Below are positions 16,294 through 38,379 of a stretch of DNA of 51,419 nt, one piece after another. This DNA is from Pseudomonadota bacterium (GTDB lineage: Bacteria > Pseudomonadota > Gammaproteobacteria > Burkholderiales > Burkholderiaceae_C). Numbering within the stretch: the first letter of the stretch is position 1; the number at the start of each line of letters is the position of its first letter. The notes beneath the pieces are model-generated. The model was not told the origin of the DNA and ran no database searches. It saw nothing but the letters and a program-made list of their open reading frames with translations. The position numbers were made by a program, and so were the translations under genes. The stretch is from contig JAJZVU010000028.1 of assembly GCA_021845505.1 (NCBI GenBank), positions 1-51,419 on the forward strand, in the 5' to 3' direction.

Positions 16294-16722
16294 TCAGGTC
16301 GCGGCGCGCCGCAGCACCTCGATGGTCCTGCGCTGCGGATCGACTCGCACCCAGTCCCCGGTGCGCACGACCTCGGCCGGGTTGCGCGACCAGCCTTCGG
16401 TGATGGCGATGCCGGCGAACACCGCGCCCTGCACCATCACCGGGTTGGTGACCCCGAACACGAAGGCCTTGGGAGCGATGCCCTTGTGCTTGATGTCGTA
16501 GAAGGCCCAGCCTGCGGCGATGCCCCCCTTGGCGGTCGGGAAGAAGCAGATCTTGTCACGGATGTTGGTTCCCTCGAGCTTGTGCCCGGGCTTGGTGATC
16601 TCGCCGCTCCAGCGGTCGAGGTCGTAGCGCGGGGAGAAGCCCTCCTGGGAAACGACGGCCTCGCCCTCGACCACGGGGCCGAAGGCTCGCTCGACGGTGA
16701 TGGTCTGGATCGAATCGCTCAT
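16294..16722 (-). CDS. Aconitase X swivel domain, small subunit (DUF126)
   Basis: A 142-aa protein, downstream of the large subunit with 23 nt between. EGEAVVSQEGFSPRYDLDRW, IRDKICFFPTAKGGIAAGW and VFAGIAITEG match the DUF126/AcnX small-subunit (swivelling) domain. Family knowledge: heteromeric AcnX enzymes are dehydratases, such as bacterial cis-3-hydroxy-L-proline dehydratase and archaeal mevalonate 5-phosphate dehydratase. It is convergent with the EAL gene across 28 nt. Confidence 0.88.
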   Translation of the reverse strand: MSDSIQTITVERAFGPVVEGEAVVSQEGFSPRYDLDRWSGEITKPGHKLEGTNIRDKICFFPTAKGGIAAGWAFYDIKHKGIAPKAFVFGVTNPVMVQGAVFAGIAITEGWSRNPAEVVRTGDWVRVDPQRRTIEVLRRAAT

Positions 16723-16745
16723 GGTGCGTACCGTGGGTGGAGGTG

Positions 16746-17987
16746 TCAGGCCAGCTGCCCGCTGCAGGCGATGTCCACGCAATCCTGGGTCGTGCGCAGG
16801 ATGGTGTTGAAGCGGTGCGCGCCGATGATGTTGACGATCTTCGCCGAGTTGGAAACCATGTTGGTCCAGCCGTTGCGGCGCCTCATCTCCGACAGGTTCT
16901 CGAGGATGTAGAAGCACACCCCCTCGAGCACCGTGACCCCCGCGTCCTCCAGCGCCTGCAGGTAGCCCAGGTTGGCCGCGCTGGCCTTCACCGAGGTCGC
17001 GGTGGTGACGAACACCTGGGTCCCCGGGTGCACCTTGCGGCCCGCGAAACGCGCGGCCAGGTCCTTCATCTCCAGCAGCGACAGCTGCGGGCCGGAGAAC
17101 ACCACCAGGTTGGCGCTGCCGTCGCCCAGTCCGTAGCCCCGGTAGACGCCGCGCAGGTCCTCGTCGGTGATGGTCCAGGCCGGCGGCGGCGTCTGCGCGC
17201 CGAAGGCGGCCTGCAGCGTGGGCGCCTCCGGGGTCACGCCGACCATGTGGAACATCGCCATCGAGCCGTAGCTGGCCAGCGCGCAGCCCAGGTGCTTGAG
17301 CTCGTCGGCGGTGGGGGCGCGGCGCAGGCCGTCGAACACCGGCACCGCGTAGTAGTTCTGGTTGCGCTCGCCGACGATCTTGCCGATGGCTCCCCAGTCG
17401 GCGAGGTCGTCGAGCCGGCAATCCAGCCGCACGTGCAGGGTGCCGCGGCGGTGGGCGTCGAGGTGGAAGCCGTACTCCGGCGTGCGCCCGGTCACCGCGG
17501 CGGCCAGCGCCGAGGGCCCTCCCTCGAAGTTGCTGCGCGCGCCGAACACCGAATTGGCATAGATCACCGTGCCGGTGTCGCCCCACGCGACATGCTCGCC
17601 CAGGTGGGGCTGGTAGATGGTCTGGTAGTTGATGCACGTGTCGGCGGTGCACACGTTCATCTGCCGCAGCGACGCGATGATCTTGCGTTCCTTGGCCGCC
17701 TCTTCGGCATGCTGGCCCAGGCGCTCGACGTGCGCGAAGTCGATGCAGCGGGCGTTGGTGGTGATCGGAACCGAGCAGCGCGCGTGGTTGGCGCAGGCAT
17801 GCTCCATGTAGCGCAGCCCGGCGTCGCCCATGACCTCGATGTCGCCCATCATGTGGGCGTTGGTGATCGGCACGAAGCGCTCGGCGCCCCAGAACCTTCC
17901 GACTTCGATCTGGTAGGCGATGGCTTCGCGCACCGCCTCACCATGCTCTCCGGCGAGCATACGTTGTTCTTCCGGGGTGAGTTGCAT
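16746..17987 (-). CDS. Aconitase X catalytic domain, large subunit (DUF521)
   Basis: A 413-aa protein, with AGGAG ahead of ATG at 17987. LTPEEQRMLAGEHG and AHMMGDIEVMGDAGL at the start, NVCTADTCINYQT (candidate Fe-S cysteines), GDTGTVIYANSVFGARSNFEGGPSAL-type sequence (given in part) and the terminal Cys in IACSGQL match the AcnX large subunit. In characterised bacteria this pair dehydrates cis-3-hydroxy-L-proline, but no proline-catabolism gene is nearby, so the substrate here is open. A palindromic operator lies 51 nt upstream. Confidence 0.88.
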   Translation of the reverse strand: MQLTPEEQRMLAGEHGEAVREAIAYQIEVGRFWGAERFVPITNAHMMGDIEVMGDAGLRYMEHACANHARCSVPITTNARCIDFAHVERLGQHAEEAAKERKIIASLRQMNVCTADTCINYQTIYQPHLGEHVAWGDTGTVIYANSVFGARSNFEGGPSALAAAVTGRTPEYGFHLDAHRRGTLHVRLDCRLDDLADWGAIGKIVGERNQNYYAVPVFDGLRRAPTADELKHLGCALASYGSMAMFHMVGVTPEAPTLQAAFGAQTPPPAWTITDEDLRGVYRGYGLGDGSANLVVFSGPQLSLLEMKDLAARFAGRKVHPGTQVFVTTATSVKASAANLGYLQALEDAGVTVLEGVCFYILENLSEMRRRNGWTNMVSNSAKIVNIIGAHRFNTILRTTQDCVDIACSGQLA

Positions 17988-18103: not shown

Positions 18104-19048
18104 TTACTGCTCTGCGAAGTGGCCGAAGCTTTGCGCCAGCAGGGTCTCGGCGTGCTCGAGGATGAAGTAGCGGAAGGCCTCGGCGGCCGGCGACAGCAGC
18201 TTGGACGCGCTGTTGACCGCGTACCAGCGCCGCAGCACCGGCATGCCCTGCATGCGCGGCACCACCAGCAGCCCGTCGTGCAGCTCCAGGCCGACGGTGT
18301 GCAGCGACAGGAAGCTGATCCCCATGCCGGCCATCACCGCCTGCTTGATGCTTTCGTTGCTCTGCATTTCGGTGAACAGCGGCAACTCGACGCGGTGGCG
18401 CAGCAGGTATTCCTCGAAGGTCGAGCGCGTCCCCGACCCGGCTTCGCGCATGATGCAAGGGAACTCCGCCAGCCGCTGCGGGGCATGCGGGCCGCCTTGC
18501 TGCAGCGGGTGGCCGGCGGGCGCGACCACCCCCATCGGGTGCACCGCGAAGGGCTCGGCGCGGGTGTCGATCTCCTTCGGCGGCCGCCCCATGATCGCCA
18601 GGTCGAGCTCGCTGTTGTGGAGGTGGTTGACCAGTTGCTCGCGATTGCCCACGAACAGCCGCAGGTCGAGACTGGGATGGCTTTCCTGGAAGCGCGCCAG
18701 CAGGCGCGGCACGAAGTACTGGGCGGTGCTGACCATGCCGATGGTCAACCTGCCCGCCTTGACCCCGCGCAGCCGCGCCATCGCGTCCTCCGCGTCCTTC
18801 AGCGTGGCGAGGATCTTGCGCGCGTAGACCAGGAAGTACTCCCCGCTCAGGGTCAGGCTGACCGACTTGCCCTGGCGCTCGAACAGCGGCAGCCCGAGTT
18901 GCGACTCGAGATCGCGGATCTGGATCGACACCGCCGGCGGGGTCAGGTGCATTTCCTGCGCCGCCTTGCCGAAATGCAGGTGGCGCGCCGCCGAGCTGAA
19001 CACCCGCAGCTGGCGCAGGGTGATGTTCTTCACCTCGCTCCCCTTCAT
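18104..19048 (-). CDS. cbbR: LysR-type regulator of the Calvin-cycle operon
   Basis: A 314-aa LysR regulator. The N-terminal winged HTH (LRQLRVFSSAARHLHFGKAAQ, quoted at 20-21 residues in the family form; then HLTPPAVSIQIRDLE) and the effector domain (IGMVSTAQYFVPRLLARF, LDLAIMGRPP, GMGISFLSLHTVGLEL) are typical of CbbR, which activates RuBisCO genes in response to metabolites such as RuBP, PEP or NADPH. It follows cbbO by about 70 nt on the same strand rather than diverging from cbbL, which is less common. A CbbR-like box lies just upstream of its start. Confidence 0.9.
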   Translation of the reverse strand: MKGSEVKNITLRQLRVFSSAARHLHFGKAAQEMHLTPPAVSIQIRDLESQLGLPLFERQGKSVSLTLSGEYFLVYARKILATLKDAEDAMARLRGVKAGRLTIGMVSTAQYFVPRLLARFQESHPSLDLRLFVGNREQLVNHLHNSELDLAIMGRPPKEIDTRAEPFAVHPMGVVAPAGHPLQQGGPHAPQRLAEFPCIMREAGSGTRSTFEEYLLRHRVELPLFTEMQSNESIKQAVMAGMGISFLSLHTVGLELHDGLLVVPRMQGMPVLRRWYAVNSASKLLSPAAEAFRYFILEHAETLLAQSFGHFAEQ

Positions 19049-22809: not shown

Positions 22810-24231
22810 TCAGCGGTTGGCGACGTCGAGCTTGTCGACGGTGTCGAACTCGAACTTGATTTCCTTCCAGGTCTCCATGGCGATCTTCAGCTCCGGCGAG
22901 TCCTGCGCAGCGACGGCCAGGATGTCCTTGCCTTCCTTTTCCAGCTGGCGCCCCTCGTTGCGCGCCTGCACGCAGGCCTCCAGCGCGACGCGGTTGGCCG
23001 CCGCGCCGGCGGCGTTGCCCCAGGGGTGGCCCAGGGTGCCGCCGCCGAACTGCAGCACCGAGTCGTCACCGAAGATGCTCACCAGCGCCGGCATGTGCCA
23101 GACGTGGATTCCCCCCGATGCGACCGGGAAGATGCCGGGCATCGACCCCCAGTCCTGGTCGAAGAAGATGCCCCGCGAGCGATCCTCGGCGATGAAGCGC
23201 TGGCGCATGATGTCGATCCAGCCGAGCGTCGCCGCGCGGTCGCCCTCGAGCTTGCCGACCACCGTTCCCGAGTGCAGGTGGTCGCCGCCCGACAGCCTCA
23301 GCGCCTTGGCCAGCACCCGGAAGTGGATGCCGTGGTGGGGGTTGCGGTCGAGCACGGCGTGCATCGCGCGGTGGATATGCAGCAGCACCCCGTTGTCGCG
23401 GCACCACTGCGCCAGCCCGGTGTTGGCGCAAAAGCCCCCGGTCAGGTAGTCGTGCATGATGATCGGCGCGCCGATCGACTTGGCGTACTCGGCGCGCTTG
23501 AACATTTCATCGGGGGTCGGCGCGGTGACGTTGAGGTAATGCCCCTTGCGCTCGCCGGTCTCGTGCTCGGCCTTGTCGATGGCCTCCATGACGAAATCGA
23601 AACGCTGCTTCCAGCGCATGAAGGGCTGGGAGTTGATGTTCTCGTCGTCCTTGGTGAAGTCCAGCCCGCCGCGCAGGCATTCGTAGACCGCGCGGCCGTA
23701 GTTCTTCGCCGACAGCCCGAGCTTGGGCTTGATGGTGCAGCCCAGCAGCGGGCGCCCGTACTTGTTCATCACGTCGCGCTCGACCTGGATGCCGTGCGGC
23801 GGCCCGTTGCAGGTCTTCACGTAGGCCAACGGGAAGCGCACGTCCTCCAGGCGCAACGCACGGATGGCCTTGAAGCCGAACACATTGCCCACCAGCGAGG
23901 TGAACACGTTGACCACCGAGCCTTCCTCGAACAGGTCGATCGGGTAGGCGATGAAGGCGTAGAAGCAGGTGTCGTCGCCGGGGACATCCTCGATGCGGTA
24001 AGCGCGACCCTTGTAGTAGTCCAGGTCGGTCAGCAGGTCGGTCCACACCGTGGTCCAGGTCCCGGTGGACGATTCCGCGGCCACCGCGGCCGCCGCCTCC
24101 TCGCGGTCGACCCCGGGCTGCGGGGTGATCTTGAAGCACGCCAGGATGTCGGAGTCCACCGGGGTGTACTCGGGCATCCAGTAGGTCTGCCGGTATTCCT
24201 TGACTCCGGCCTGGTAGGTTTTCGCTGCCAT
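22810..24231 (-). CDS. cbbL: Ribulose bisphosphate carboxylase large subunit, form I
   Basis: A 473-aa large subunit that fixes CO2 onto RuBP. The active-site loop TIKPKLGLS (Lys168), the carbamylated Lys194 in [10 protein letters not shown] with Asp196 and Glu197, the HIHRAMHAV motif, loop 6 [10 protein letters not shown] and [12 protein letters not shown] are all intact. The start has AAGGAG 9 nt upstream. With cbbS, cbbQ and cbbO behind it, this is the IAq arrangement. An AT-rich upstream region holds two CbbR-type boxes. This gene argues for autotrophic growth. Confidence 0.97.
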
Positions 24232-27243: not shown

Positions 27244-28053
27244 ATGGCATCCTCCGACCAAGCCCGCTCCACGGCCCTCCGAGCGTTCGCCGTGCTCGAG
27301 CACGTGGTGCGCGCGGGGGCGCCGGTTTCGCTCGACGAGGCCACCCAGGCCTGCGGGCTGCCCAAGCCGACGGTGTTCCGCATCCTCGGCATGTTGCACG
27401 AAGCCGACTTGTTGCAGCGCGATCCGCTGAGCAAGCGCTACCTGGTCGGGCCGCGCATGTCCCGGCTGGCGATCGACGCGATGCAGCACTCGGTGTTGCG
27501 GGCGCAGATCCGCAACGTGCTGCAGCAGCTGGTCGACGAGGTTTCCGAGAGCTGCAACTTCACCATGTTCGACGGCAACGAGGTGCTGTATGTCGAGCGG
27601 GTCGAAACGACGCTGCCGCTGCGGCTGCACCTCGACCCGGGCACGCGCGTTCCGCTGCACTGCACCGCCAGCGGCAAGCTGTTCCTCTGCCACATGTCGC
27701 GCGAACAGGTCCGGCGGCTGCTGGGCAGCGGACCGCTCAAGCGCTACACCGCCAACACCATCACGGACATCGACACCCTGCTGCGCCACCTGCAGCAGGT
27801 GCGGCGCAGCGGCATCGGAACCCACGACAGCGAGCTGTTCGACGCGTCGGTCGCGGTCGGCGTGCCGGTGGCCGATCCGTCCGGCCGGGTCTACGCGGCG
27901 GTGGCGATGCACGCCCCGGCGGCGCGGATGAACATCGAGCAGGCGCTGCGGCACGTACCCGCGCTGCGCCGGGCGGCCACGACCATCGCGTCGATCCTGC
28001 TGCCGGCGCAGCCGGCCCCGGCAAGCCGGGCCGGCCGCCGCGTTCCCGCCTGA
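27244..28053 (+). CDS. IclR-family transcriptional regulator
   Basis: A 269-aa regulator. The N-terminal winged HTH (about 8-70) contains LDEATQACGLPKPTVFRIL; the effector domain (about 80-255) holds ALHCTASGKLFL-type sequence and the C-terminal SVAVGVPVADPSGRVYAAVAM, which is characteristic of IclR proteins that sense small organic acids. It is tail-to-tail with the amidase (3-nt gap) and is the only regulator near the putative amide and keto-acid cluster, so it is the likely controller. Confidence 0.9.
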   Translation: MASSDQARSTALRAFAVLEHVVRAGAPVSLDEATQACGLPKPTVFRILGMLHEADLLQRDPLSKRYLVGPRMSRLAIDAMQHSVLRAQIRNVLQQLVDEVSESCNFTMFDGNEVLYVERVETTLPLRLHLDPGTRVPLHCTASGKLFLCHMSREQVRRLLGSGPLKRYTANTITDIDTLLRHLQQVRRSGIGTHDSELFDASVAVGVPVADPSGRVYAAVAMHAPAARMNIEQALRHVPALRRAATTIASILLPAQPAPASRAGRRVPA

Positions 28054-28056
28054 GGC

Positions 28057-29244
28057 TCAGCCGCCGCCGGGCAGCCCGAGCGCCTGGCACAATCGCTCGG
28101 CCAGGTCGAGCAGGCCGAGGTCGCGGCCGCCGGCGGCCACCAGCGAAAGCCCCACCGGAAGGCCGTCGACCCGCGCCAGCGGCAGGCTGATCTCGGGCAG
28201 GCCGGCCAGCCCGGCGATGGCTGTCACGCGCTGGGTCAGCGCGCGCACGCGGCCCAGTTCTGCGGCATCCGCGGTGAGCAGCGGAGCCACGCAGGGACTG
28301 GTGGGGAACACCAGCACGCCGCCCGCCGCCAGCAGGCCGTGCATGCGGGCGCGGAAGTCCTGGCGCGCGACCCGTGCCGAGCGCACCGCGTCGACGCCGA
28401 CCTGCGACGCGATGCGAAAGCGCTCGGCGGTGGTCTCGGCCATCGCCGGCGCGAACTCCTCGATCCACGGTCCCAGCGACTGCCAGGCCTCGCGGCCGTG
28501 GATGGTGGCGAACATCTCACGCAGCGACTCCAGCCCCTGCGGCGCCAGCCGCGCCTCCTGCAGCGTCCAGCCGGCGCGAGCCAGCTGCCGGCAGGTCGCG
28601 TCCAGCGCCGCAGCGACCTCCGGCCGGGCATTGTCCCAGGCCTCGCGCAGCAGCAGCAGCGGACCGTCGACCGGCGGCCCCCACGGCAGCAGCGCCTGGC
28701 CGACGCGCCGCAGCGTGCCGACATCGCGGCACAGCCAGCCCGGGGTGTCCAGGCTCGGGACGTAGGGCACCCCGCCCTGCAGGCTGATCGAACCCCAGCT
28801 GGGGCGGATGCCGAACAGCCCGCAGTAGCTCGCCGGGATGCGTACCGAGCCGCCGGTGTCCGAGCCCAGCCCGAGCGCGGCCAGGCCGGCTCCGACGGCG
28901 CTGGCCGAACCGCAGGAGGATCCGCCCGGCAGGCGATCGGCAGCGGCCGGGTTCAGCGGGGTGCCGTACCAGTGGTTGCTGCCCTCCAGGCCGTAGGTGA
29001 ACTCCACCGTCTTGGCCTTGCCGACGACCCGCGCCCCGGCCTCGCGCAGCCGCGCGACCACCGCGGCATCGCTGCTGGCCGCCGGGTGCAGGCGCGCCCA
29101 GTCCGGGTTGCCGTAGCCGGTCACCGTGCCGGCGATGTCGAACACGTCCTTGACCACCACGTCCAGCCCGGACAGCGGGCCGCCGGCATGCCCCTCGATC
29201 TGCAGCGGGGCCAGCAGCCCCTGGTCGAGTTGACTCGGTTGCAT
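28057..29244 (-). CDS. Amidase-signature hydrolase
   Basis: A 395-aa amidase. The Ser-cisSer-Lys triad is visible: Lys32 in VVVKDVFD, cis-Ser in LPGGSSCGSASA (109/110) and the nucleophile Ser133 in GSDTGGSVRIPAS. These enzymes hydrolyse amide bonds of small or aryl/alkyl amides. It is short compared with 450-500 aa family members but starts and ends cleanly. It sits 11 nt downstream of an MFS gene, so the carrier may import its amide substrate. Which amide is used is unknown. Confidence 0.88.
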   Translation of the reverse strand: MQPSQLDQGLLAPLQIEGHAGGPLSGLDVVVKDVFDIAGTVTGYGNPDWARLHPAASSDAAVVARLREAGARVVGKAKTVEFTYGLEGSNHWYGTPLNPAAADRLPGGSSCGSASAVGAGLAALGLGSDTGGSVRIPASYCGLFGIRPSWGSISLQGGVPYVPSLDTPGWLCRDVGTLRRVGQALLPWGPPVDGPLLLLREAWDNARPEVAAALDATCRQLARAGWTLQEARLAPQGLESLREMFATIHGREAWQSLGPWIEEFAPAMAETTAERFRIASQVGVDAVRSARVARQDFRARMHGLLAAGGVLVFPTSPCVAPLLTADAAELGRVRALTQRVTAIAGLAGLPEISLPLARVDGLPVGLSLVAAGGRDLGLLDLAERLCQALGLPGGG

Positions 29245-29255
29245 CGTGTCCCCCT

Positions 29256-30695
29256 TCAGGCTTCGCCGCCGGCCGGGCCCGCGGCGCGCGCGCCGCCGTA
29301 TTGCGACAGGTCGGTGCCGGTCTCCTCGATGCTGCGCCCCGAGGTCTGCGTGCCATAACGCCAGATCGGCAGGATGCACAGCACGCTGAGCACCGCCAGC
29401 ACGGTGAACAGCGTCGCGCTGCCCAGTCGCGCCGACAGGATGGGGAAGAAGTAGATGAGCACCACCCCGGTGAGGAAGCGGGTCACGCATTCGCCGAGCA
29501 TCACTCCCGATGCCCGCAAGCGGGTCGGGAATTGTTCGGCCATGTACAGCTTGGACAGCGGGAAGGTCGCGTAGACCAAGCCCCAGGTCACCGCCGCGGC
29601 GAGCACCACGCCGGCCTCCGGCAGGTGCTGGCCCAGCGCGATGGCGCCCAGCGCGGTGCCGAGCATCAGCGCGACGATGCCCCGCCGACGGCTGAACTTG
29701 TCGCCCACGCTGCCGGCGATCGCGGTGGTCAGCACGGTGAGGAACAGCAGGCCCGAGGTGTAGTACAGCGCGCTGGACTTGCTCGCACCCATGCGGTGCA
29801 GGATGCTCGGGCCGTAGATGGTGATGACGTAGAACAGGATGAACGGCGACAGCAGCGCCAGGTACGACACCACCATGCGAGCCAGGTACGGCGGCTTGAA
29901 CAGGTCGGCCAGCGACGCCCCGCCGCTGCGGCCGATCTGCAGCACCTGCAACGCGGTCGGGTCGATCAGCTTGTCGTCATGCGCGACACCGCTGCGGTCT
30001 TCGAGCATCTCGACCAGCTCGCGCACCTTGTGGATCTTCCCCACGCGCAGCAGGAAGCGCGGCGACTCCGGCAGATAGATCAGGATCACCGGAACCAGCA
30101 CGATGGCCGCGCCGCCGATCATCAGCAGCACCCGCCAGGCCTGCGCGTCGGGGATCTTGCCGACGATCAGGGCCGCGGCCAGGGTGTTGAGCCCGTAGGC
30201 GAAGCCCAGCAGCGAGTTCGACAACCCGACCGCGGTGCCGCGCCAATGCTTGTTGACGAACTCCGACAACAGCAGGTAGGGAACCGGGAACACCGCGCCC
30301 TGGCCGAGCCCGGCGATGAAACGCAGCAAGGCCAGGTCGGTCACGTTGCGCGAGAAGGCAGCGAGGAAGGTGAACACGCTGAACACCACGATCCCGCCGA
30401 GCAGCGTGGTCTTGCGGCCGTAGCGGTCGGCCAGCCGACCGGCCGGAAGCAGCCCGATCACGATGCCCAGGGTGCCGCTGCTGCCGATCAGGCCGATGTC
30501 ATGCGGCTCGAGATGCCAGACTCCCTTGAGCAGCAGGATCACCGGCGCGATGATGCCGATGTCGAAGGCCTCCAGGATCCATACCAGCCCGAGCAGGGCG
30601 ACGATGAGCAGGATGATGCGGTTGACCGGCAATCGGTCCAGCCGCGCCAGCAGGTTCTCCTGCTCGTACAACTCTTGCGAAGGCGTAGTCGCCAT
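29256..30695 (-). CDS. MFS transporter (aromatic acid / sugar-type)
   Basis: A 479-aa carrier with twelve membrane segments and a strong GGAGGAG ribosome site. LPAGRLADRYGRKTTLLGG is the MFS loop 2-3 motif and LPESPRFLLRVGK the sugar/aromatic-acid-type loop after helix 6. SVGDKFSRRRG repeats the motif in the second half. It belongs to the metabolite:H+ symporter branch, which includes organic acid carriers. It is placed just before the amidase and downstream of the dehydrogenase on the same strand. Confidence 0.9.
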   Translation of the reverse strand: MATTPSQELYEQENLLARLDRLPVNRIILLIVALLGLVWILEAFDIGIIAPVILLLKGVWHLEPHDIGLIGSSGTLGIVIGLLPAGRLADRYGRKTTLLGGIVVFSVFTFLAAFSRNVTDLALLRFIAGLGQGAVFPVPYLLLSEFVNKHWRGTAVGLSNSLLGFAYGLNTLAAALIVGKIPDAQAWRVLLMIGGAAIVLVPVILIYLPESPRFLLRVGKIHKVRELVEMLEDRSGVAHDDKLIDPTALQVLQIGRSGGASLADLFKPPYLARMVVSYLALLSPFILFYVITIYGPSILHRMGASKSSALYYTSGLLFLTVLTTAIAGSVGDKFSRRRGIVALMLGTALGAIALGQHLPEAGVVLAAAVTWGLVYATFPLSKLYMAEQFPTRLRASGVMLGECVTRFLTGVVLIYFFPILSARLGSATLFTVLAVLSVLCILPIWRYGTQTSGRSIEETGTDLSQYGGARAAGPAGGEA

Positions 30696-30750
30696 GGGTG
30701 TCTCCTCCCAGTGAATAGGCGTGCTGCACGACGGGTCGGTATCGTCCCGC

Positions 30751-30784
30751 CCCGGCAGCCGTGCGGGTCGCGACGGCTGCCGGG
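30751..30784. repeat. 12-bp perfect inverted repeat between the SDR and MFS genes
   Basis: Arms CCCGGCAGCCGT (30751-30762) and ACGGCTGCCGGG (30773-30784) flank a 10-nt loop. Lying between two same-strand genes, it may terminate or attenuate transcription or stabilise an mRNA end. No T-run was seen on the minus strand after it. The remaining part of this 225-nt gap shows no clear promoter. Confidence 0.75.
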
Positions 30785-30920
30785 ATCGGGCTCCCCTGCG
30801 ATGCCCCGTCGCAAGGCTCTCGCGGGAATTCTTGCAAGCGCTCGGGATGCGCTGCGCCGGCGCATCCGCTGGTGTATCGTGGACAGATCCCTCCAGGTTT
30901 CGAAGCCGGCGCGGCGCCAG

Positions 30921-31703
30921 TCAGACCATGTGCCAGCCGTGGCTGACCACGATCGACTGCCCGGTCAATGCGTTGCTCGGGAACGCGGCGAGGAACAAGG
31001 CTACCTCGGCGACATCCTGCACGGTCGTGAACTCGCCGTCCACCGTCGTGGCCAGCATGACCTCCTGCACCACCTGGCGCTCGCTGATTCCGCGTTCCTG
31101 CGCGAGCTGGGGAATCTGGCGTTCCACGAGTGGCGTGCGCACGAAACCCGGACAGATCAGGTTCGCTCGCACCCCGTACGCCGCGCCCTCCTTGGCCACC
31201 ACCCGGCACAGCCCCGCCAGCCCGTGCTTGGCGACCACGTAGGGCCCCTTGAGCACCGAAGCCTCGTGCGAGTGCACCGAACCCATCAGCAGCACGCTGC
31301 CGCCGCGCCCCTGCGCGCGCATGTGGCGCAGGCAGGCGCGAGTGACCAGGAAGCCACCGTCCAGATGCACCGACACGATGCGCCGCCAATCGGCATAGGA
31401 CACGTCGGCGATCGCCTCCAGGTGCTGCACTCCGGCATTGCTGACCAGCACGTCGATTCCGCCCAGCGCCGCCGCGGCCTGGTCGACCGCCTGGGTCACC
31501 TGCTCCTCGGAGGCCACATCCATCGCCAGCGCGATCGCGCGGTCCGACTGCAGTTGCAGCTCCTCGAGCACGCGCTGCGCGGCGTCGCGGTCCAGGTCGG
31601 CCAGGCAGAGCCTGGCGCCGGCCTGGGCGAAGCGGCGCGCGATCGCCGAGCCGATTCCGCCCGCGGCGCCGGTGATCAGCGCTGTCTTTCCTGCCAGTTG
31701 CAT
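30921..31703 (-). CDS. SDR related to 3-hydroxybutyrate dehydrogenase
   Basis: A 260-aa short-chain dehydrogenase. TGAAGGIG (11-18) binds NAD; Ser142, Tyr155 and Lys159 (GPYVVAKHG) form the catalytic set. HSHEASVLKGPYV, CPGFVRTPLVERQIPQLA, TVDGEFTTVQDVAEVALFLA and the C-terminal ALTGQSIVVSHGW closely follow bacterial D-3-hydroxybutyrate dehydrogenase. It would interconvert 3-hydroxybutyrate and acetoacetate, the product expected from the beta-keto acid cleavage enzyme nearby, though a related hydroxyacid is equally possible. It is the second of two or three linked minus-strand genes. Confidence 0.85.
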   Translation of the reverse strand: MQLAGKTALITGAAGGIGSAIARRFAQAGARLCLADLDRDAAQRVLEELQLQSDRAIALAMDVASEEQVTQAVDQAAAALGGIDVLVSNAGVQHLEAIADVSYADWRRIVSVHLDGGFLVTRACLRHMRAQGRGGSVLLMGSVHSHEASVLKGPYVVAKHGLAGLCRVVAKEGAAYGVRANLICPGFVRTPLVERQIPQLAQERGISERQVVQEVMLATTVDGEFTTVQDVAEVALFLAAFPSNALTGQSIVVSHGWHMV

Positions 31704-31755
31704 TCCCGCTCCCTTCGTTGGCCACTGCCGCCGCGCGCGGCGCCGCGCATCGGGC

Positions 31756-33171
31756 CTATTCCAGCACGCCGGCCATCGCCGCGGCCTGGCCTTCGGCGTC
31801 GGCGTCCTGGTCCATGCTCGCGCCGATCGGCTCCCATTTGATCAGCAAGGCCGACGCCAGCCCCACCGCGGGCACCAGCAGCAGCAGGCCGATCATGTTG
31901 TAGAAGCCGACCCGGGCCTTGAGCAGCGGAAAGAAATAGAAGCCGAGGACGCTGCCCACCCGCACCATGCCTTGCCCCCACCCGGTTCCGACACCCCGGA
32001 TGCGCGTCGGATACGACAGCGCCGCCATCGTCATGCCCTGCGAGCCCGGTCCGAAGGAGTGGCCGAGGATCATCAGGCCGACCAGCAGGCCGCGCATTTC
32101 AGGGGACAGCCCGGCATGCAGGCGATACAGGGCCAGCAGCGCGGCGAACACGACCGCATAGCCCAGGATGGCCATTCTGCGGGTACCCATCCGGCGCGTG
32201 ACCGACACGTTGAGAACCGCGCCGACAATCCCGAACAGATTGAAGGCGATCGCGCCCAGGATGGCATTGATGAACGCCGCTCCGAAGAGCGTCTGCGAGA
32301 TCGAAGGCAGGTTGAACCCGATCGCAAAATATTCCATGCTCTGGGTCATGCAGATCGCCGAGATCAGCAAGGTGCGCTTGGCGTACAGCGGCTGGAAGAT
32401 CTCGGAGAATGCCGGGCGCTGCACCGGCTTGGAGGGCGCCCGCCCGCCTTGCGCGGCCACGTGGACCTTGACCTTGTAGGTGCTCTCGAGGATGCGCGCC
32501 GCTTCCTCCAGGCCGACGTTCTGGGCCGCCCAGGGTGCGCTCTCCTTCACGTAGATGAACCGAAGGATCAGGATGAGCAGTGCCGGAACCGCGCCGAACC
32601 CCACCGCCACGCGCCAGAGTTCGTCGCCAAAGCCGGCGTAATAGAACGGAAGGATCACCAGCCCGGTGCACGAGGCGGCCAGGAACCACATCAGCTGCCA
32701 CAGGTTGATGCCTCCGCCGCGCTTGTTCCGGTTGACGAATTCGGCGATGAAACTCAAGGCCACGGGGAAGTCCAGGCCGACCCCCAGGCCCATCAGGAAG
32801 CGAAACACCAGCAGCATCGCCAGGTTGACCGACAAGGCCGCGCCCACCGCGGACACGACCAGCAGCACCAGGTCGACCAGGAACATCTTGTAGCGCCCGA
32901 CCAGGTCGGTGGCCTTGCCGCCCCAGATCGCACCGACCAGCGCTCCGATGGCCATCATCGCCGTCACGCTGCCGATCTCGAAGGGCGACAGTCCGAAGCT
33001 CTGCTTGAGTGCCGGCACGCCGATTCCCAGACTGGTGAAGTCGTAGGCGTCGACGAACACCCCGCCGAGGGCGATCATCACGATGAGCGCGCTCGAGCGG
33101 GCTCCCGGATGTTCATCGACGAACTTCGAAACGTCGCTTGCGCTGCGGATGGTCAATTCCTGGGTCATCAT
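31756..33171 (-). CDS. MFS transporter, second copy in the catabolic cluster
   Basis: A 471-aa twelve-helix carrier. Two adjacent ATGs (33171 and 33168) follow GGAAG. VFVDAYDFTSLGIGVPAL, WGGKATDLVGRYKMFLVD, FLMGLGVGLDFPVALSFIAE and FIYVKESAPWAAQN mark the aromatic-acid/metabolite:H+ symporter type. A cytoplasmic loop of about 45 residues separates the halves. It is about 50 nt upstream of the SDR on the same strand. Together with the first MFS gene this gives two different carriers for one cluster. Confidence 0.9.
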   Translation of the reverse strand: MMTQELTIRSASDVSKFVDEHPGARSSALIVMIALGGVFVDAYDFTSLGIGVPALKQSFGLSPFEIGSVTAMMAIGALVGAIWGGKATDLVGRYKMFLVDLVLLVVSAVGAALSVNLAMLLVFRFLMGLGVGLDFPVALSFIAEFVNRNKRGGGINLWQLMWFLAASCTGLVILPFYYAGFGDELWRVAVGFGAVPALLILILRFIYVKESAPWAAQNVGLEEAARILESTYKVKVHVAAQGGRAPSKPVQRPAFSEIFQPLYAKRTLLISAICMTQSMEYFAIGFNLPSISQTLFGAAFINAILGAIAFNLFGIVGAVLNVSVTRRMGTRRMAILGYAVVFAALLALYRLHAGLSPEMRGLLVGLMILGHSFGPGSQGMTMAALSYPTRIRGVGTGWGQGMVRVGSVLGFYFFPLLKARVGFYNMIGLLLLVPAVGLASALLIKWEPIGASMDQDADAEGQAAAMAGVLE

Positions 33172-33342
33172 GTCTTCCTTCCGGTGGTACCGCTGCCTGC
33201 GCAACGGTGTGCCTGGTGCGCACGATACGGCGCGCCCGAACGCTCGGCCGCGCGCTGCACCCTGGCGACGCGTGCGCGGTCGATCGCCCTGTGCCCGACT
33301 CCCTGTGGTGTATACCTCCTGCAAAGATCGGTGAAAACCGGC

Positions 33343-33358
33343 GCCGGCGCGCGCCGGC
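33343..33358. repeat. 16-bp perfect palindrome in the MFS-carboxyltransferase gap
   Basis: GCCGGCGCGCGCCGGC is its own reverse complement and lies between two minus-strand genes (gap 33172-33433). It could be a stem at the 3' end of the carboxyltransferase mRNA. Near 33307 the gap also holds GGTGTATACC, a weak candidate operator. Confidence 0.5.
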
Positions 33359-33433
33359 GGCCCGGCCAGCCGCGTGCGGGGACCAGGCCGCGACACGCGG
33401 CGACCGGCGGGCTGGGCAGGCGACCGGACACCG

Positions 33434-34918
33434 TCAACTGCCGATGGCCAGATCCACGCCGGCGAAGCGGATGCGGGCGCGCTGGATGTCCCTGCGCGAC
33501 CCGAGGTAGCGGATCAATTCGTGCAGCGGCGAAGTCCTCTCGGGGTAGCGCCGACCCCTGGGCTGCAACTGCTCGATCAGCGACTTGTCGTAGAAGGCGC
33601 GCAGCAGCAGGTCCTCGTCGCTGGCCTGGCCGCCGAGCTCGGCGCGCAGCCGCGGCAGCCAGCCCTGCAGGCGGGCAGCCGGCGGCTCGTCGCTGATCTC
33701 GCTGTCGCGGATGCGCGCGCGCTCGAGGAATTCGTCGCTGGGGCGCGCCGCCAGCCTGCCGTAATGCCCCAGCGCGTACTTGCGCACCTCGTCGGGCACG
33801 GTCCTGTAGCGCTCGCCCTGCACCACGTTGAGCACCGCCTGGGTGATGATGTACTGCGCGAAGGGACTGACCAGGATCGGGTAGCCGAGGTCCTGGCGCA
33901 CCTGCGCCGCCTCGACCAGGATTTCCGGCAGCCGCGACTGCATCCCCATGGTCTGCAGCTGGCTCTTGAGGTTGGAGATCATCCCCCCCGGAACCTGGTG
34001 CTCGTACAGCGCGGGGTCGTAGGTGGCGATCTCGCCGCGCGGCTTGCCCTCGCGCTCGGCCAGCCAGCCGAAGTACTCGGAGCTCTCGCGCAGCGCCGCG
34101 TGGTCCAGGCCGGTGCGGATTCCCAGCAGGCTGGCGCGGCGGTCGATCTCCTCGGCCGCCGGCAGCGAGGCGCCGTTGGCCAGCGGCTCCACCGCGGTGT
34201 CGCCCAGCGCGAAGCCGCTTTGCATCGCGATCTGGTAGACCTCGGGCGACAGCGCCGACTGGCAATGCGAATGCAGGCGCATGGGCACCGACCCCGCCGC
34301 GGCGACGACCGCCGGGAACAGCGTGCGCGCGCGCTGCGGGGTCAGCAGTCCGGTCGGATCCTTGACCGAAATGAAGTCGGCCTTCAGCGCGACCAGCTCG
34401 CGTGCCCGCTGCACGTAGTAGTCATCGGTGTGCACCGGGCTCAGGGTGTAGGTCATCATCGCGTTGACCAGCATCCCGGCGTCGTGCGCCGAGCGCACCG
34501 AGGACTCGATGTTGCGGTTGTCGTTGAGGGCGTCGTAGGCGGTCAGCACCTTCAGGCCGCGCCTGGCCAGAGCCTGCGAGTTGAGCTCGACGATGTCGTC
34601 GGGAAAGAGCTCGAAGGTGTAGAGGCTCTGCCCGCGGGTCAGGCCGTCGCAGGGCGTGGCGAAGCGCTGGCACAGCAGGCCGATGCGCTCGAAGGGGTCC
34701 TCGCGCAGGTAGCGCACGCAGACATCGAACACCGCGCCGCCGAGGATGTTGATGTATGCGTAGCCCACGCGATCGATGACCCCGACGATCGGGGCCATCA
34801 TCTCGGTGGTCATGCGGGTGGACCAGAGGCACTGGTGGGCATCGCGCAGCGTGACGTCGACCAGGCGGAATTCCTGCTGCCGGGCGGAGTGACCTGCTTG
34901 CGGGGACGGATCGGACAT
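33434..34918 (-). CDS. Free-standing biotin-dependent carboxyltransferase (5S / PycB / OadA-like)
   Basis: A 494-aa HMGL-like TIM barrel plus C-terminal domain. Metal ligands match the transcarboxylase 5S subunit: Asp26 in TLRDAHQ, the carbamyl-Lys candidate Lys186 in SVKDPTGLL, and His216/His218 in LHSHCQS. PGGMISNLKSQLQTMG and QYIITQAVLNVVQGERY follow the family. Such domains move a carboxyl group between biotin and pyruvate/oxaloacetate. Unlike OadA or PycB it has no C-terminal biotin domain; a separate carrier gene lies 74 nt upstream. The acceptor is not known, and pyruvate is only the default guess. Confidence 0.85.
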   Translation of the reverse strand: MSDPSPQAGHSARQQEFRLVDVTLRDAHQCLWSTRMTTEMMAPIVGVIDRVGYAYINILGGAVFDVCVRYLREDPFERIGLLCQRFATPCDGLTRGQSLYTFELFPDDIVELNSQALARRGLKVLTAYDALNDNRNIESSVRSAHDAGMLVNAMMTYTLSPVHTDDYYVQRARELVALKADFISVKDPTGLLTPQRARTLFPAVVAAAGSVPMRLHSHCQSALSPEVYQIAMQSGFALGDTAVEPLANGASLPAAEEIDRRASLLGIRTGLDHAALRESSEYFGWLAEREGKPRGEIATYDPALYEHQVPGGMISNLKSQLQTMGMQSRLPEILVEAAQVRQDLGYPILVSPFAQYIITQAVLNVVQGERYRTVPDEVRKYALGHYGRLAARPSDEFLERARIRDSEISDEPPAARLQGWLPRLRAELGGQASDEDLLLRAFYDKSLIEQLQPRGRRYPERTSPLHELIRYLGSRRDIQRARIRFAGVDLAIGS

Positions 34919-34992
34919 GTTCGGGTCGCGGTGGTCTTGCGGGAACCTGGCCGGGCATCGGCGCAGGACTGGGGGGCGCGGGGCTGCGCGGC

Positions 34993-35607
34993 TCAGCTCG
35001 GAGCCACGACCATCAGCACCTGGCCGAATTCGACGGCGTCGCCGTCGCCGACCAGGATGTGGGTGACCGTGCCGGCGCCGCCGGCCGGGATGGAGTTCAT
35101 CAGTTTCATCACTTCGATGATGCACACCGTGGTTTGCGCGTCCACCGCCTGCCCGACCTCGACAAAGGGCCTGGCTCCGGGCTCGGGTGCGCGATAGAAG
35201 GTGCCGACCATCGGCGACTTGATCAACAACGATCCGGCCGGGAACGACGCCGCGCCGGGCGCTGCCGAAGGCTGGGCGCCGGGGGCATCGAGCAGCAGTT
35301 CGCCTGCGCCCACGTGGCCGTGGCGCTGCTGCGTCGCGGCCTGCTGGGTCATCACCTGTTGCGCCGCCGCCTGCTGCGGCGCCGCGGGCTGGCGCACCGG
35401 GGCTTGCTGCGCCGGCGCGGTGTCGACAGGCAGCGCGAGGGCTGCTGGCGCCGCGACCGCGTCGACCCGCCTGAGGTCGACCTCGAGGTCGCCGAGCTTG
35501 AGATGGAACTCGCCGAACTCCGAGCACGACTTGATCAACTCGACGAGTTCCAGCAAATCCTTATAGGACATTTGGTGGTCGTTAGCGTTCACCAGTGCAA
35601 TCTCCAT
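34993..35607 (-). CDS. Biotin carboxyl carrier protein
   Basis: A 204-aa protein. The N-terminal 50 residues (KDLLELVELIKSCS, LGDLEVDLRRV) resemble AccB. A Gln/Ala/Pro-rich flexible linker (about 50-125) follows, then the biotinyl domain with EVMKLMN (biotin on Lys168) and the thumb-like SPMVGTFYRAPEPGARPF. The start may be ATG 35607, or GTG 35592 behind GGAG, or ATG 35571. It is transcribed ahead of the carboxyltransferase and divergent from the BKACE gene. It may be an extra carrier besides the housekeeping AccB; that cannot be tested here. Confidence 0.9.
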   Translation of the reverse strand: MEIALVNANDHQMSYKDLLELVELIKSCSEFGEFHLKLGDLEVDLRRVDAVAAPAALALPVDTAPAQQAPVRQPAAPQQAAAQQVMTQQAATQQRHGHVGAGELLLDAPGAQPSAAPGAASFPAGSLLIKSPMVGTFYRAPEPGARPFVEVGQAVDAQTTVCIIEVMKLMNSIPAGGAGTVTHILVGDGDAVEFGQVLMVVAPS

Positions 35608-35666
35608 GAAAGGCGATCGAGGGTTCAGCCCTTTTTCCCGGTGACGACCCGGGTTTTGGGGTCTAA

Positions 35667-35703
35667 TTTCACTCAGTGGAATTTTCTATTTCTCTGAGTG
35701 CAA
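35667..35703. promoter_or_regulatory. Two inverted copies of a 15-bp site in the BCCP-BKACE control region
   Basis: Site 1 (35667-35681) is TTTCACTCAGTGGAA and site 2 (35689-35703, minus strand) is TTGCACTCAGAGAAA: 12 of 15 positions agree. Site 1 is itself a near palindrome. Centres are 22 bp apart, two helical turns. The region is AT-rich and lies between divergent genes, so it should be the operator for both. An IclR-type protein would fit. Confidence 0.6.
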
Positions 35704-35777
35704 TTCTTGCAGCCGCGGCGAGGCATTGCAATAATCAAATCGATCGCCGCCACTCTTTCCGACTCAGGAGAATCCCT

Positions 35778-36608
35778 ATGCAGCCCGTCATCATCACCGT
35801 CGCCATCACCGGCGCATTGCCTCGCAAGAAGGACAGTCCGGCGGTGCCCGTCACGCCGTCGGAGCAGGTCGAGTCCACCCACGAGGCCTTCGAGGCCGGT
35901 GCCTCGCTGGTGCATATCCACGTGCGCAATCCCGACGAGTCGCCGAGCTCCGACCCCGAGCTCTACGGGCGCGTGCAGGAAGGGGTGCGCAAGCATTGCC
36001 CGGGAATGATCGTGCAGTTCTCCACCGGCGGCCGCGGTCGCGACCAGACCGCGCGCGGCGCCATGCTGTACCTGCGGCCCGACATGGCCTCGCTGGCCAC
36101 CGGTTCGGTGAACTTCCCGACGGGGATCTACGAGAACCCGCCCGACTTCGTCGAGGGCCTGGCGCGCTCGATGCAGGAATACGGGATCAAGCCCGAGATC
36201 GAGGTGTTCGACCTGGCGATGCTGTACAGCGCCGCCAAGCTGGTCAAGGCCGGGCTGCTCGACTCCCATGCCCACGTGCAGTTCGTCATGGGCGTGCCCA
36301 ACGCGATGCCGGCCCGCCGTCCGATCTTCGATTTCCTGCGCTCGGAGTTGCAGCAGGTGCTGCCCGACGCGACGTGGGTGGCGGCGGGAATCGGGCGCAT
36401 GCAATGGGAAGTCAACCAGTGGTGCCTGGCGGAGGGCGGCCATTGCCGCACCGGGCTGGAGGACAACCTGCGCTTCGACGACAAGCGGCTGGCGGCCAGC
36501 AACGCCGAGCTGGTGCGCAAGATCGTCGATGCCTGCGAAAGCCATGGCAGGCGGCCGGCCACCGCGGCCGAGGCGCGGCAGATGCTCGGCCTGCGGGCCG
36601 CGGCCTGA
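35778..36608 (+). CDS. Beta-keto acid cleavage enzyme (BKACE, DUF849)
   Basis: A 276-aa TIM-barrel enzyme with AGGAG 7 nt before [52 protein letters not shown] and [14 protein letters not shown] hold the zinc and catalytic residues of the family (the Lys-to-2-aminohexanoate Kce group). Known members condense a beta-keto acid with acetyl-CoA to give acetoacetate and a new acyl-CoA; substrates include 3-keto-5-aminohexanoate and dehydrocarnitine. The specificity here is unknown. It heads an operon with bioB and an SDR. Confidence 0.9.
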
Positions 36609-36619
36609 GGGAGCGCGCG

Positions 36620-37630
36620 ATGAACGCAGTCGAGGGTGTGCGGCCCGCGCAAGCGGCAGCGGCAGCGGCAGCGGCGGCACCGCAGCGCTGGACGGTCGCC
36701 CAGGCGGTCGAGTTGTTCGAGCTGCCGTTGCCCGAACTCGTGTTTCGTGCCCAGCAGGTGCATCGCCAGTGCTTCGACCCCGGCGAGGTGCAGTTGTCCA
36801 CCCTGCTGTCGATCAAGACCGGCGGCTGCCCGGAGGACTGCGCGTATTGCCCGCAGTCGGCCCACCACGACACCGGCGTCAAGGGCAGCGCGCTGCTCGA
36901 CGTGGACAGCGTGGTCGATGCCGCGCGGCGCGCGCGCGACGCCGGCGCGACGCGCTTTTGCATGGGCGCCGCGTGGCGCTCGCCCAAGCCGCGCCAGCTC
37001 GAGCAGGTGGCCCGCATGGTCGCCGAGGTCAAGGCGCTGGGGCTGCAGACCTGCGTCACGCTGGGCATGCTGCAGCCGGGCCAGGCCGAGCGACTGCGCG
37101 AGGCGGGGCTGGACTACTACAACCACAACCTCGACACCGCTCCCGAGTTCTACGGCCGCATCATCACCACCCGCTGCTACGAGGAGCGCCTCGACACCCT
37201 CGAGCAGGTGCGGTCCGCCGGGCTGAAGGTCTGTTGCGGAGGCATCGTCGGCATGGGCGAGTCGCGCAGCCAGCGCGCCGGGCTGCTGGTGCAACTGGCC
37301 AACCTCGACCCCTACCCCGAGTCGGTGCCGATCAACAACCTGGTGCGGGTCGCCGGCACGCCGCTGGCCGACCAGCCCGAGCTCGATCCGCTGGAGTTCG
37401 TGCGCACGATCGCAGTCGCGCGCATCCTGATGCCCCGTGCCAGGGTGCGGCTGTCGGCCGGGCGCGAGAGCATGGACGACTCGCTGCAGGCGCTGTGCCT
37501 GGTCGCTGGGGCGAACTCGATCTTCTTCGGCGACACCCTGCTGACCACTCCCAATCCGCGGGCCGCGGCCGACCTGGCTCTGCTGCGGCGCATGGGCATG
37601 CGCGCCCAGTCCGCGCCGGAGGACGCCTGA
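36620..37630 (+). CDS. bioB: Biotin synthase
   Basis: A 336-aa radical-SAM enzyme that inserts sulfur into dethiobiotin. The cluster motif CPEDCAYC (Cys70, Cys74, Cys77), [13 protein letters not shown], the second cluster region and GIVGMGES are all present. Residues 12-20 form a nine-Ala tract coded by a short GCGGCA repeat. It lies 11 nt after the BKACE gene and overlaps the next SDR by 1 nt, so it is in a catabolic operon and not beside other bio genes. This suggests biotin is needed with this pathway. Confidence 0.94.
36653..36676 (+). repeat. GCGGCA hexanucleotide repeat in bioB
   Basis: Three GCGGCA units and a fourth GCGGCG encode the poly-Ala tract. Changes in copy number would stay in frame. 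Confidence 0.8.
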
Positions 37631-38379
37631 TGCAACAGGACCTGCAAGGGCGGGTGGCGCTGGTCACCGGCGCGGCGCGCGGCATCGGCCTGCACATCGC
37701 CGAACGCCTGGCGCGCGCCGGCTGCCAGGTCGTGCTCGGCGACATCGATGCCCAGGGCGCGGCGCGCGCCGCCGAGGCCATCGGCCCGGCCGCGCGCGCG
37801 CTGGCGATGGACGTGCGCGACCGCGCGCAGGTGCGCGCTTGCGTCGACGCGGTGCTGGATGCGCAGGGCGGCATCGACATCCTGGTCAACAACGCCGGGG
37901 TGCTCGGCCAGGGGCCGTTCGAGCAGACCGACGGCGCCGCGTGGGACGAACTGGTGGCGGTCAACCTGACGGGAATCTTCAACTGCGTGCAGGCGGTGGC
38001 GCCGTCGATGATCGACAGGGCGCGAGGCAACATCATCAACCTCGCGTCGGTGTCGGCGGCGCGCGGCGGCGGCTCGGTGGGCAACACCTGGTACGGCACC
38101 ACCAAGGCCGGCGTGGTCGCGATGACCCAGGGGCTGGCGCGCGAACTCGGCCCGCGGGGCGTGCGGGTCAATGCGATCTCCCCCGCGGTGGTCGACACCG
38201 ACATGATGCGCCCCTACCTGACCGGGGCGCTGCGCGACGCGATCACCTCGCGCATCCCGCTGCGGCGGCTGACCCTGCGCAGCGACGTCGGCGAAGTCGC
38301 CGCCTGGCTGGCCAGCGATGCCTCGGAGTTCGTCACCGGGCAGACCATCGCGGTCGACGGCGGCCTGCTCTGCACCTGA
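37630..38379 (+). CDS. Short-chain dehydrogenase/reductase of the BKACE operon
   Basis: A 249-aa SDR. TGAARGIG (13-20) binds the nucleotide, NNAG is at 87-90, and the catalytic set is Ser140/142, Tyr155 and Lys159 (WYGTTKAG). The C-terminal FVTGQTIAVDGGLL is standard for the FabG-like classical group. It starts in the bioB stop codon. Its position suggests oxidation of a beta-hydroxy acid to the beta-keto acid that BKACE cleaves; that is inference. Confidence 0.88.
   Translation: MQQDLQGRVALVTGAARGIGLHIAERLARAGCQVVLGDIDAQGAARAAEAIGPAARALAMDVRDRAQVRACVDAVLDAQGGIDILVNNAGVLGQGPFEQTDGAAWDELVAVNLTGIFNCVQAVAPSMIDRARGNIINLASVSAARGGGSVGNTWYGTTKAGVVAMTQGLARELGPRGVRVNAISPAVVDTDMMRPYLTGALRDAITSRIPLRRLTLRSDVGEVAAWLASDASEFVTGQTIAVDGGLLCT

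Follow-up and report, generated by a model that had tools for sequence, protein, structure and literature searches.

In Cupriavidus necator H16, sulfoacetate is said to be degraded by a pathway, described by Weinitschke in 2010, that runs via sulfoacetyl-CoA, SauS and Xsc. Carboxyltransferases (CTs) of the pyruvate type, such as those of pyruvate carboxylase, OadA and 5S, carboxylate the methyl group beside a carbonyl (CH3-CO-); acetone carboxylases and 2-ketopropyl-CoM carboxylase are unrelated proteins and not biotin enzymes, and we know of no biotin-dependent ketone carboxylase in catabolism. According to Price 2019 (PMC6365646), beta-keto acid cleavage enzymes (BKACEs) cleave a beta-keto acid with acetyl-CoA and release acetoacetate as co-product, and a deoxyribonate pathway with glyceryl-CoA as product is encoded by a putative operon holding a short-chain dehydrogenase/reductase (SDR), a BKACE and two major facilitator superfamily (MFS) genes. 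A SauS step is also described for Bilophila (PMC12890257). Here we describe a gene cluster at positions 27244-38379 of contig JAJZVU010000028.1 (positions 1-51,419, forward strand; the whole stretch is called the window below). NCBIfam and Pfam profile scans recovered all ten genes that an original prediction had listed, in the same order: IclR, amidase, MFS, an SDR resembling 3-hydroxybutyrate dehydrogenase (HBDH), MFS, a CT of the pyruvate carboxylase/OadA type and a biotin carboxyl carrier protein (BCCP), followed by divergent BKACE, bioB and a second SDR (SDR2). Judging from sequence, we favour, with some reserve, the reading that this cluster serves to degrade a sulfonate with a ketone group, most likely sulfoacetone (2-oxopropane-1-sulfonate), via carboxylation and cleavage.

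Scanning genome contigs with the CT as sole query gave 44 loci in relatives (L005-L048). CT, BCCP and BKACE stand together in 33 of them, across alpha-, beta- and gammaproteobacteria, so the gene arrangement is not due to chance. L029 and L030 look like one organism sampled twice, and a single assembly is the source of both L021 and L042. With four loci from genomes of the window's order (L070-L073, short flanks) and the window itself, the comparison comprised 49 sequences, which contained matches to BCCP (43), BKACE (38), biotin carboxylase (33), SDR2 (22, some weak), TauE (21), parts of ATP-binding cassette (ABC) transporters (17-19), amidase (12), HBDH (11), SauS (10), GMC oxidoreductase (9), tripartite ATP-independent periplasmic (TRAP) transporters (9) and bioB (7); for broad families, weak matches are counted as well, and contig edges truncate many of the loci. 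Truncation at a contig end or short flanks likewise apply to most of the 11 sequences without BKACE. The original prediction had put BKACE at the centre of a single pathway that included a biotin-linked carboxyl transfer, and the relatives bear this out: the BKACE half is kept with the BCCP-CT half. Few genomes of the window's order have the CT (5 of 399 at E values up to 1e-130), and it was found in none of the 11 other family members listed in that search. The CT of L007, a separate assembly, is 98% identical to the window's, and those of L005, L006, L029 and L030 are 83-87% identical.

The CT passes the broad NCBIfam model for 'pyruvate carboxylase subunit B' (NF006761; Table 1) and falls below the equivalog cut-offs for oadA (366.9 versus 756.5), PRK12330 (264.6 versus 827) and PRK14041 (342.2 versus 734). 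Aligned with the pyruvate carboxylase beta subunit, OadA and 5S, it keeps the RDxHQ, K-D and HxH motifs and has RGQSLYTF for RGQNLLGY, KDPTG for KDMAx and VSPFAQ for VTPTSQ/VTPSSQ. VSPFAQY (replacing VTPTSQI) is present in 50 of 52 CT rows, and the window's CT does not have the VTP(S/T)S(K/Q) motif with its catalytic Thr; the other two rows are second CT copies, 45-46% identical, with VSPTAQF. The pass against NF006761 and the AccB-like character of the BCCP would suit CT and BCCP, whether or not joined by biotin carboxylase, acting in general metabolism as a pyruvate carboxylase or oxaloacetate decarboxylase, with an incidental link to BKACE and sulfonate genes. We regard this as very unlikely, given scores that miss the equivalog cut-offs of OadA, 5S and pyruvate carboxylase by a wide margin, the near-universal VSPFAQ in place of the VTP..Q of three solved relatives, the synteny with BKACE over three classes, and the operator-like sites between the two halves described below. 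Separately, L021:1-9200 and L015:1-7256 contain a related cluster in which the CT is present in two copies, one bearing VSPTAQF. In L021 it also holds a thiolase, a ChsH2-like OB protein, an AMP-binding ligase and a DctP protein. Several of its open reading frame (ORF) families recur in L015; it is possibly a sister pathway acting on another ketone.

BKACE matches PF05853, a family of zinc enzymes that cleave their substrates with acetyl-CoA, over the whole profile (1-274 of 274; 327 bits versus 24.8) and contains the HIHVR motif. STGGRGR is found in 37 of 40 BKACE rows and is missing from L041 and from two paralogues (33%); 3no5, 3chv and 3fa5, which are solved relatives, have GGRSGAG there, together with an Arg at NFP(T/S)R, a position that in the window is Gly. 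In these alignments, the altered motifs of both CT and BKACE are kept through the family. Downstream of BKACE, the gammaproteobacterial locus L039 encodes GST-like, CaiB-type CoA transferase, carnitine-dehydrogenase-like and acyl-CoA ligase-like proteins, and these ORF families recur in L037, L038 and L048 (only the L039 proteins were scanned).

The link to sulfonates comes from the neighbours of these genes, which in relatives were assigned by NCBIfam and Pfam to the acylating sulfoacetaldehyde dehydrogenase SauS (752 bits versus 600 in L023), the sulfite exporter TauE, and sulfonate-type importers of the ABC and TRAP transporter classes. SauS is encoded in 10 of the 44 loci (L008, L012, L020, L022, L023, L025, L031, L032, L036 and L041; in L022 only as a piece at the contig edge), from beta- and alphaproteobacteria. 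TauE occurs in 21, by a count with one query that misses the TauE of L041, and one or the other of the two in 24. The L031 locus belongs to Trinickia soli. In L041 (Roseovarius lutimaris), genes for biotin carboxylase, CT, SauS, TauE, a short-chain fatty acid transporter and amidase follow in succession, and in L105 (G211:C19) Xsc, SauS, HBDH, SDR2, CT, BCCP and BKACE lie within about 10 kb. A TauE relative (43-44%) follows the amidase in L005, L006, L029 and L030 and is absent after the window's amidase.

Co-occurrence extends to whole genomes. We compared 47 genomes chosen by CT, not by SauS or Xsc (L042 was omitted as the same assembly as L021, and the window's genome, G000, was excluded), with the 399 genomes of the order; not all of the 47 are from that order, and G211, G212, G272 and G357 belong to both sets. 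SauS exceeded its cut-off in 40 of the 47 versus 37 of the 399, and Xsc in 36 versus 48. Within the order, four of five CT genomes had SauS versus 33 of 394 others (Fisher p = 3e-4), and four of five had Xsc versus 44 of 394 (Fisher p = 9e-4), in tests that ignore shared ancestry; the fifth, G357, is 83% complete and is without both. The window's genome encodes SauS (779 bits versus 600) and Xsc (1045 versus 676) 7 kb apart on contig C24, near an SsuA/TauA-like binding protein (144 bits, below the 163.5 cut-off), a MocR-type regulator and an MFS protein that shares 75% identity with one next to the L010 cluster. Together, these data make a sulfonate context for the cluster very probable.

If BKACE feeds SauS, its product would be sulfoacetyl-CoA and its substrate necessarily 3-oxo-4-sulfobutanoate. 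We propose sulfoacetone because it is the decarboxylated form of this acid and has a methyl group beside the carbonyl, as used by pyruvate-type CTs. In brief, an MFS carrier would import sulfoacetone or its alcohol, 2-hydroxypropane-1-sulfonate, and the HBDH-like SDR would oxidize the alcohol to sulfoacetone, a role it suits since the alcohol has the shape of 3-hydroxybutyrate with sulfonate in place of carboxylate. BCCP, CT and a biotin carboxylase (part of the locus in most relatives, whereas here it would act in trans and probably be AccC) would then carboxylate the methyl group, as pyruvate carboxylase acts on pyruvate, to give 3-oxo-4-sulfobutanoate, which BKACE would convert with acetyl-CoA into acetoacetate and sulfoacetyl-CoA. 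SauS would reduce sulfoacetyl-CoA to sulfoacetaldehyde, Xsc would cleave the latter to acetyl phosphate and sulfite, TauE-type exporters would remove the sulfite, and bioB would meet the biotin demand. The original prediction of an amide or hydroxy acid that is hydrolysed, oxidized and cleaved thus survives as a single pathway, and its substrate gives way to carboxylation and cleavage of a sulfonate ketone. The order of events also changes, in that carboxylation likely makes the beta-keto acid that BKACE cleaves; the SauS, Xsc and TauE context had been missed.

Against HBDH models, the SDR passes NF009931 (Table 1) and falls just short of TIGR01963 (299.2 versus 307.05). In a tree of 14 rows, three of them non-cluster, the cluster HBDHs form a branch that excludes both the other HBDH-like protein encoded in the genome and two solved HBDHs (support 100/98). 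Close amidase matches (69-97%) are confined to five near relatives, L005, L006, L007, L029 and L030, with weaker ones (29-45%) in six other loci, and we therefore dropped the predicted amide as the shared entry substrate. HBDHs act on 3-hydroxybutyrates, and a C4 sulfonate would fit both the same sulfonate context and the occurrence of amidase matches in several lineages: the substrate could be 3-hydroxy-4-sulfobutanoate, or its amide, freed by the amidase, and the SDR would yield 3-oxo-4-sulfobutanoate directly, leaving the biotin enzyme only to rescue sulfoacetone formed by spontaneous decarboxylation. We consider this unlikely, as it would make BCCP, biotin carboxylase and bioB accessory in sequences chosen by CT, and as HBDH and amidase are found in only 11 and 12 of the 49, some loci being cut by contig ends. 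Urea amidolyase, which pairs a biotin enzyme with an amidase, was also considered and rejected: the only CT among the ten proteins is of the PYC_OADA type, and none has urea carboxylase-type CT domains. MFS2 has matches in 2 of the 49 sequences, the window and L007.

Sulfoacetone carboxylation would call for a three-part enzyme. The 'split biotin carboxyl-transfer pair' of the original prediction stands as far as CT and BCCP are present, and is incomplete in that the window encodes no biotin carboxylase of the type found in relatives: tblastn with queries from six relatives gave at most 46 bits, and the 46-bit match is a PurT-like ATP-grasp gene at window positions 2705-3919. In relatives, this biotin carboxylase (about 460 residues; a representative was confirmed by Pfam and NCBIfam) is encoded in 33 of 44 loci, with BCCP also in view in 31 of those, and lies between BCCP and CT or beside CT. 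It is absent from the window and L007 and kept in L005, L006, L029 and L030. The possibility of a copy hidden near the cluster was rejected, since the window has none, and outside it the genome has four full-length matches, none of which exceeds 57% identity to the six queries; the acetyl-CoA carboxylase copy is nearest (47-57%). All 43 BCCP rows carry the biotin-site motif, and the best piece of the cluster BCCP in the genome scan scored 114.2 bits against TIGR00531. The housekeeping AccB lies at G000:C18:8826-9260 beside AccC, and another bioB over the cut-off at G000:C16:13238-14149, so the cluster BCCP and bioB are extra copies; the predicted biotin synthase of the cluster's own is confirmed as the second in the genome. 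Where a BCCP has no local biotin carboxylase, ATP-driven carboxylation needs a partner in trans, and AccC serving the BCCP would be the simplest reading. The gene for bioB is present only in L005, L006, L007, L008, L023, L046 and the window, at differing positions, as if recruited into the locus more than once, in several lineages. Near-identical biotin carboxylase 3' ends lie at two contig ends of the genome (G000:C28:116183-116377 and G000:C19:2-196), probably a repeat that broke the assembly.

The intergenic gaps (3, 11, 225, 52, 262, 74, 170, 11 and -1 bases, in gene order) fit two divergent units: the minus strand carries BCCP-CT-MFS2-HBDH-MFS1-amidase and the plus strand BKACE-bioB-SDR2, and the IclR gene is located at the far end; the 262- and 225-base gaps could leave room for additional promoters inside the minus-strand series. 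The 170-base divergent promoter carries two 17-base near-palindromes (Table 1). On a matrix built from divergent promoters of relatives and the window, the window's own sites being part of the training set, these score 28.4 and 26.5 bits versus 13.0 bits for the next-best site elsewhere in the window; 20 of 22 promoters were used, with L007 and L030 omitted as near copies. IclR has matches in 29 of the 49 sequences, some weak. These sites suggest that the IclR protein controls both halves via paired operators, and with similar sites in relatives' promoters the predicted single regulon across the halves is probable. In the whole genome, a one-mismatch pattern found both cluster sites and three others (a weak one at window position 20140, one on C24 and one on C79). 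The C24 site (C24:98819), a well-formed match, was rejected as an operator because it falls inside an ORF resembling PhoU by eye and is probably due to chance. An extension of the IclR regulon to SauS and Xsc was likewise discarded, the best site in the 40 kb of C24 that hold both genes scoring 8.8 bits.

Several observations weigh against catabolism of sulfoacetone by this cluster. The cluster itself contains no SauS, Xsc or TauE. On C24, an acyl-CoA ligase-like gene adjoins SauS, and no operator was found in the 40 kb around SauS and Xsc; given this, and their place on another contig, the two may serve sulfoacetate or taurine. SauS is below its cut-off in 7 of the 47 CT genomes (six with no match at 1e-120 and one partial; one of the six, G416, shows the SauS piece in L022), and Xsc in 11; many of the genomes concerned are draft metagenome-assembled genomes. 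The Fisher tests disregard kinship. Two genomes with CT and BCCP have no BKACE within 18-21 kb (L021/L042, and L106, a wider stretch of L073 with none in 18 kb). Sites with at least 13 of 17 seed matches occur in 14 of the 20 promoters, the window included, at a threshold set without a shuffled control, and the promoters of L012, L020, L022, L025, L027 and L032 have no site at that threshold. In L041, whose locus includes SauS, the BKACE is 57% identical, has no GRGR and carries the same Arg as the solved relatives. Last, NF053568 labels the window's BKACE as 3-oxoadipate:acetyl-CoA acetyltransferase, and L007, L015, L016, L021, L027, L034, L042, L070-L073 and the window have BCCP without biotin carboxylase.

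The last two points each support a different reading. Taken at face value, the 3-oxoadipate label, along with the match of the MFS carriers to an aromatic acid symporter model (below cut-off), would suit a levulinate route in which levulinate, made from 4-hydroxyvalerate by the HBDH-like SDR, is carboxylated to 3-oxoadipate by the biotin enzyme and BKACE then yields succinyl-CoA and acetoacetate. Such a route leaves SauS, Xsc and TauE unexplained and is weakened by this context; no 3-oxoadipate gene was named among the selected neighbours scanned in relatives, and the three solved BKACE relatives differ from the window at the GRGR and Gly positions. We judge it quite improbable. Where biotin carboxylase is missing, as in the window, L007 and ten other loci with BCCP, CT and BCCP could instead run as a transcarboxylase or decarboxylase and not as an ATP-driven carboxylase, and the relatives OadA and 5S do work without biotin carboxylase. 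Against this, the four loci with 83-87% identical CTs keep biotin carboxylase between BCCP and CT, the ten genes include no Na+-pump subunits, and AccC at C18 could serve the window's BCCP because the latter is AccB-like; we hold this option to be highly improbable. Sulfoacetone carboxylation followed by BKACE cleavage remains the reading we prefer.

Table 1 Cluster genes and candidate operators in window coordinates. Family scans were run on the longest ORFs and gene starts were trimmed afterwards; scores are in bits, followed by the cut-off where given.
Feature	Position	Strand	Evidence
IclR-family regulator, probable local regulator	27244-28053	+	PF01614, PF09339
Amidase-signature enzyme	28057-29244	-	PF01425; NF006169 412.4 vs 391
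MFS transporter 1, possible importer	29256-30695	-	PF00083/PF07690; TIGR00895 194.6, below cut-off 418.6
HBDH-like SDR, proposed 2-hydroxypropane-1-sulfonate dehydrogenase	30921-31703	-	NF009931 346.5 vs 340
MFS transporter 2, possible importer	31756-33171	-	PF07690
CT, pyruvate carboxylase/OadA type, proposed sulfoacetone carboxyltransferase	33434-34918	-	PF02436; NF006761 409.9 vs 402
BCCP, AccB-like, second genome copy	34993-35607	-	TIGR00531 137.9 vs 115.2 (whole protein)
Candidate IclR-type operator 1, ATTTCACTCAGTGGAAT	35666-35682	no strand	28.4 on promoter matrix
Candidate IclR-type operator 2, ATTTCTCTGAGTGCAAT	35688-35704	no strand	26.5 on promoter matrix
BKACE, proposed 3-oxo-4-sulfobutanoate:acetyl-CoA cleavage enzyme	35778-36608	+	PF05853; NF053568 471 vs 350
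Second biotin synthase, bioB	36620-37630	+	TIGR00433 405.4 vs 225; PF04055 (radical SAM) and PF06968 (BATS)
SDR2, second SDR oxidoreductase	37630-38379	+	PF13561; NF005559 239.9 vs 215

Outside the cluster, the minus strand of the window encodes an aconitase X swivel-domain protein (16297-17652), which adjoins a LysR regulator at 18107-19048, and an ORF that by eye resembles the RuBisCO large subunit, form I type (22810-24231), suggesting autotrophic ability.

As the original prediction had stated, no described pathway with this gene set was found in the open-access literature, among the matches listed and with most subscription papers outside its scope; nor did any of the open-access papers searched mention 'sulfoacetone' (American spelling only). 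Under this proposal, a conserved gene set would receive a substrate class and a complete series of reactions; for this set the model labels 'pyruvate carboxylase subunit B', '3-oxoadipate acetyltransferase', 'acetyl-CoA carboxylase BCCP' and '3-hydroxybutyrate dehydrogenase' are probably misleading. If it is true, a C3 ketone sulfonate would join the organic sulfur cycle as an entry path, BKACE would gain a sulfonate substrate and a biotin enzyme would be seen to carry out ketone carboxylation. We see an evenly balanced case for the full picture, namely a biotin-dependent carboxylase turned from pyruvate to sulfoacetone, a BKACE that yields sulfoacetyl-CoA, a new entry into SauS-Xsc and, in the window's clade, a biotin carboxylase borrowed from fatty acid synthesis.

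Each of the known systems shares part of this scheme. Like acetone carboxylases and 2-ketopropyl-CoM carboxylase, the cluster would begin catabolism by carboxylating a small methyl ketone. With pyruvate carboxylase, OadA and 5S it has in common the CT domain and the aligned RDxHQ, K-D and HxH motifs, but its other CT motifs are altered and its BCCP is separate and of the AccB type. The deoxyribonate pathway likewise combines an SDR, BKACE and two MFS genes with acetoacetate as co-product, whereas its product is glyceryl-CoA and the passages that describe it include no biotin enzyme or sulfonate genes. In the sulfoacetate pathway of C. necator, sulfoacetyl-CoA is similarly reduced by SauS, followed by Xsc in aerobes; there, however, a sulfoacetate-CoA ligase makes sulfoacetyl-CoA, whereas here it would arise from the cleavage of a beta-keto acid by BKACE.

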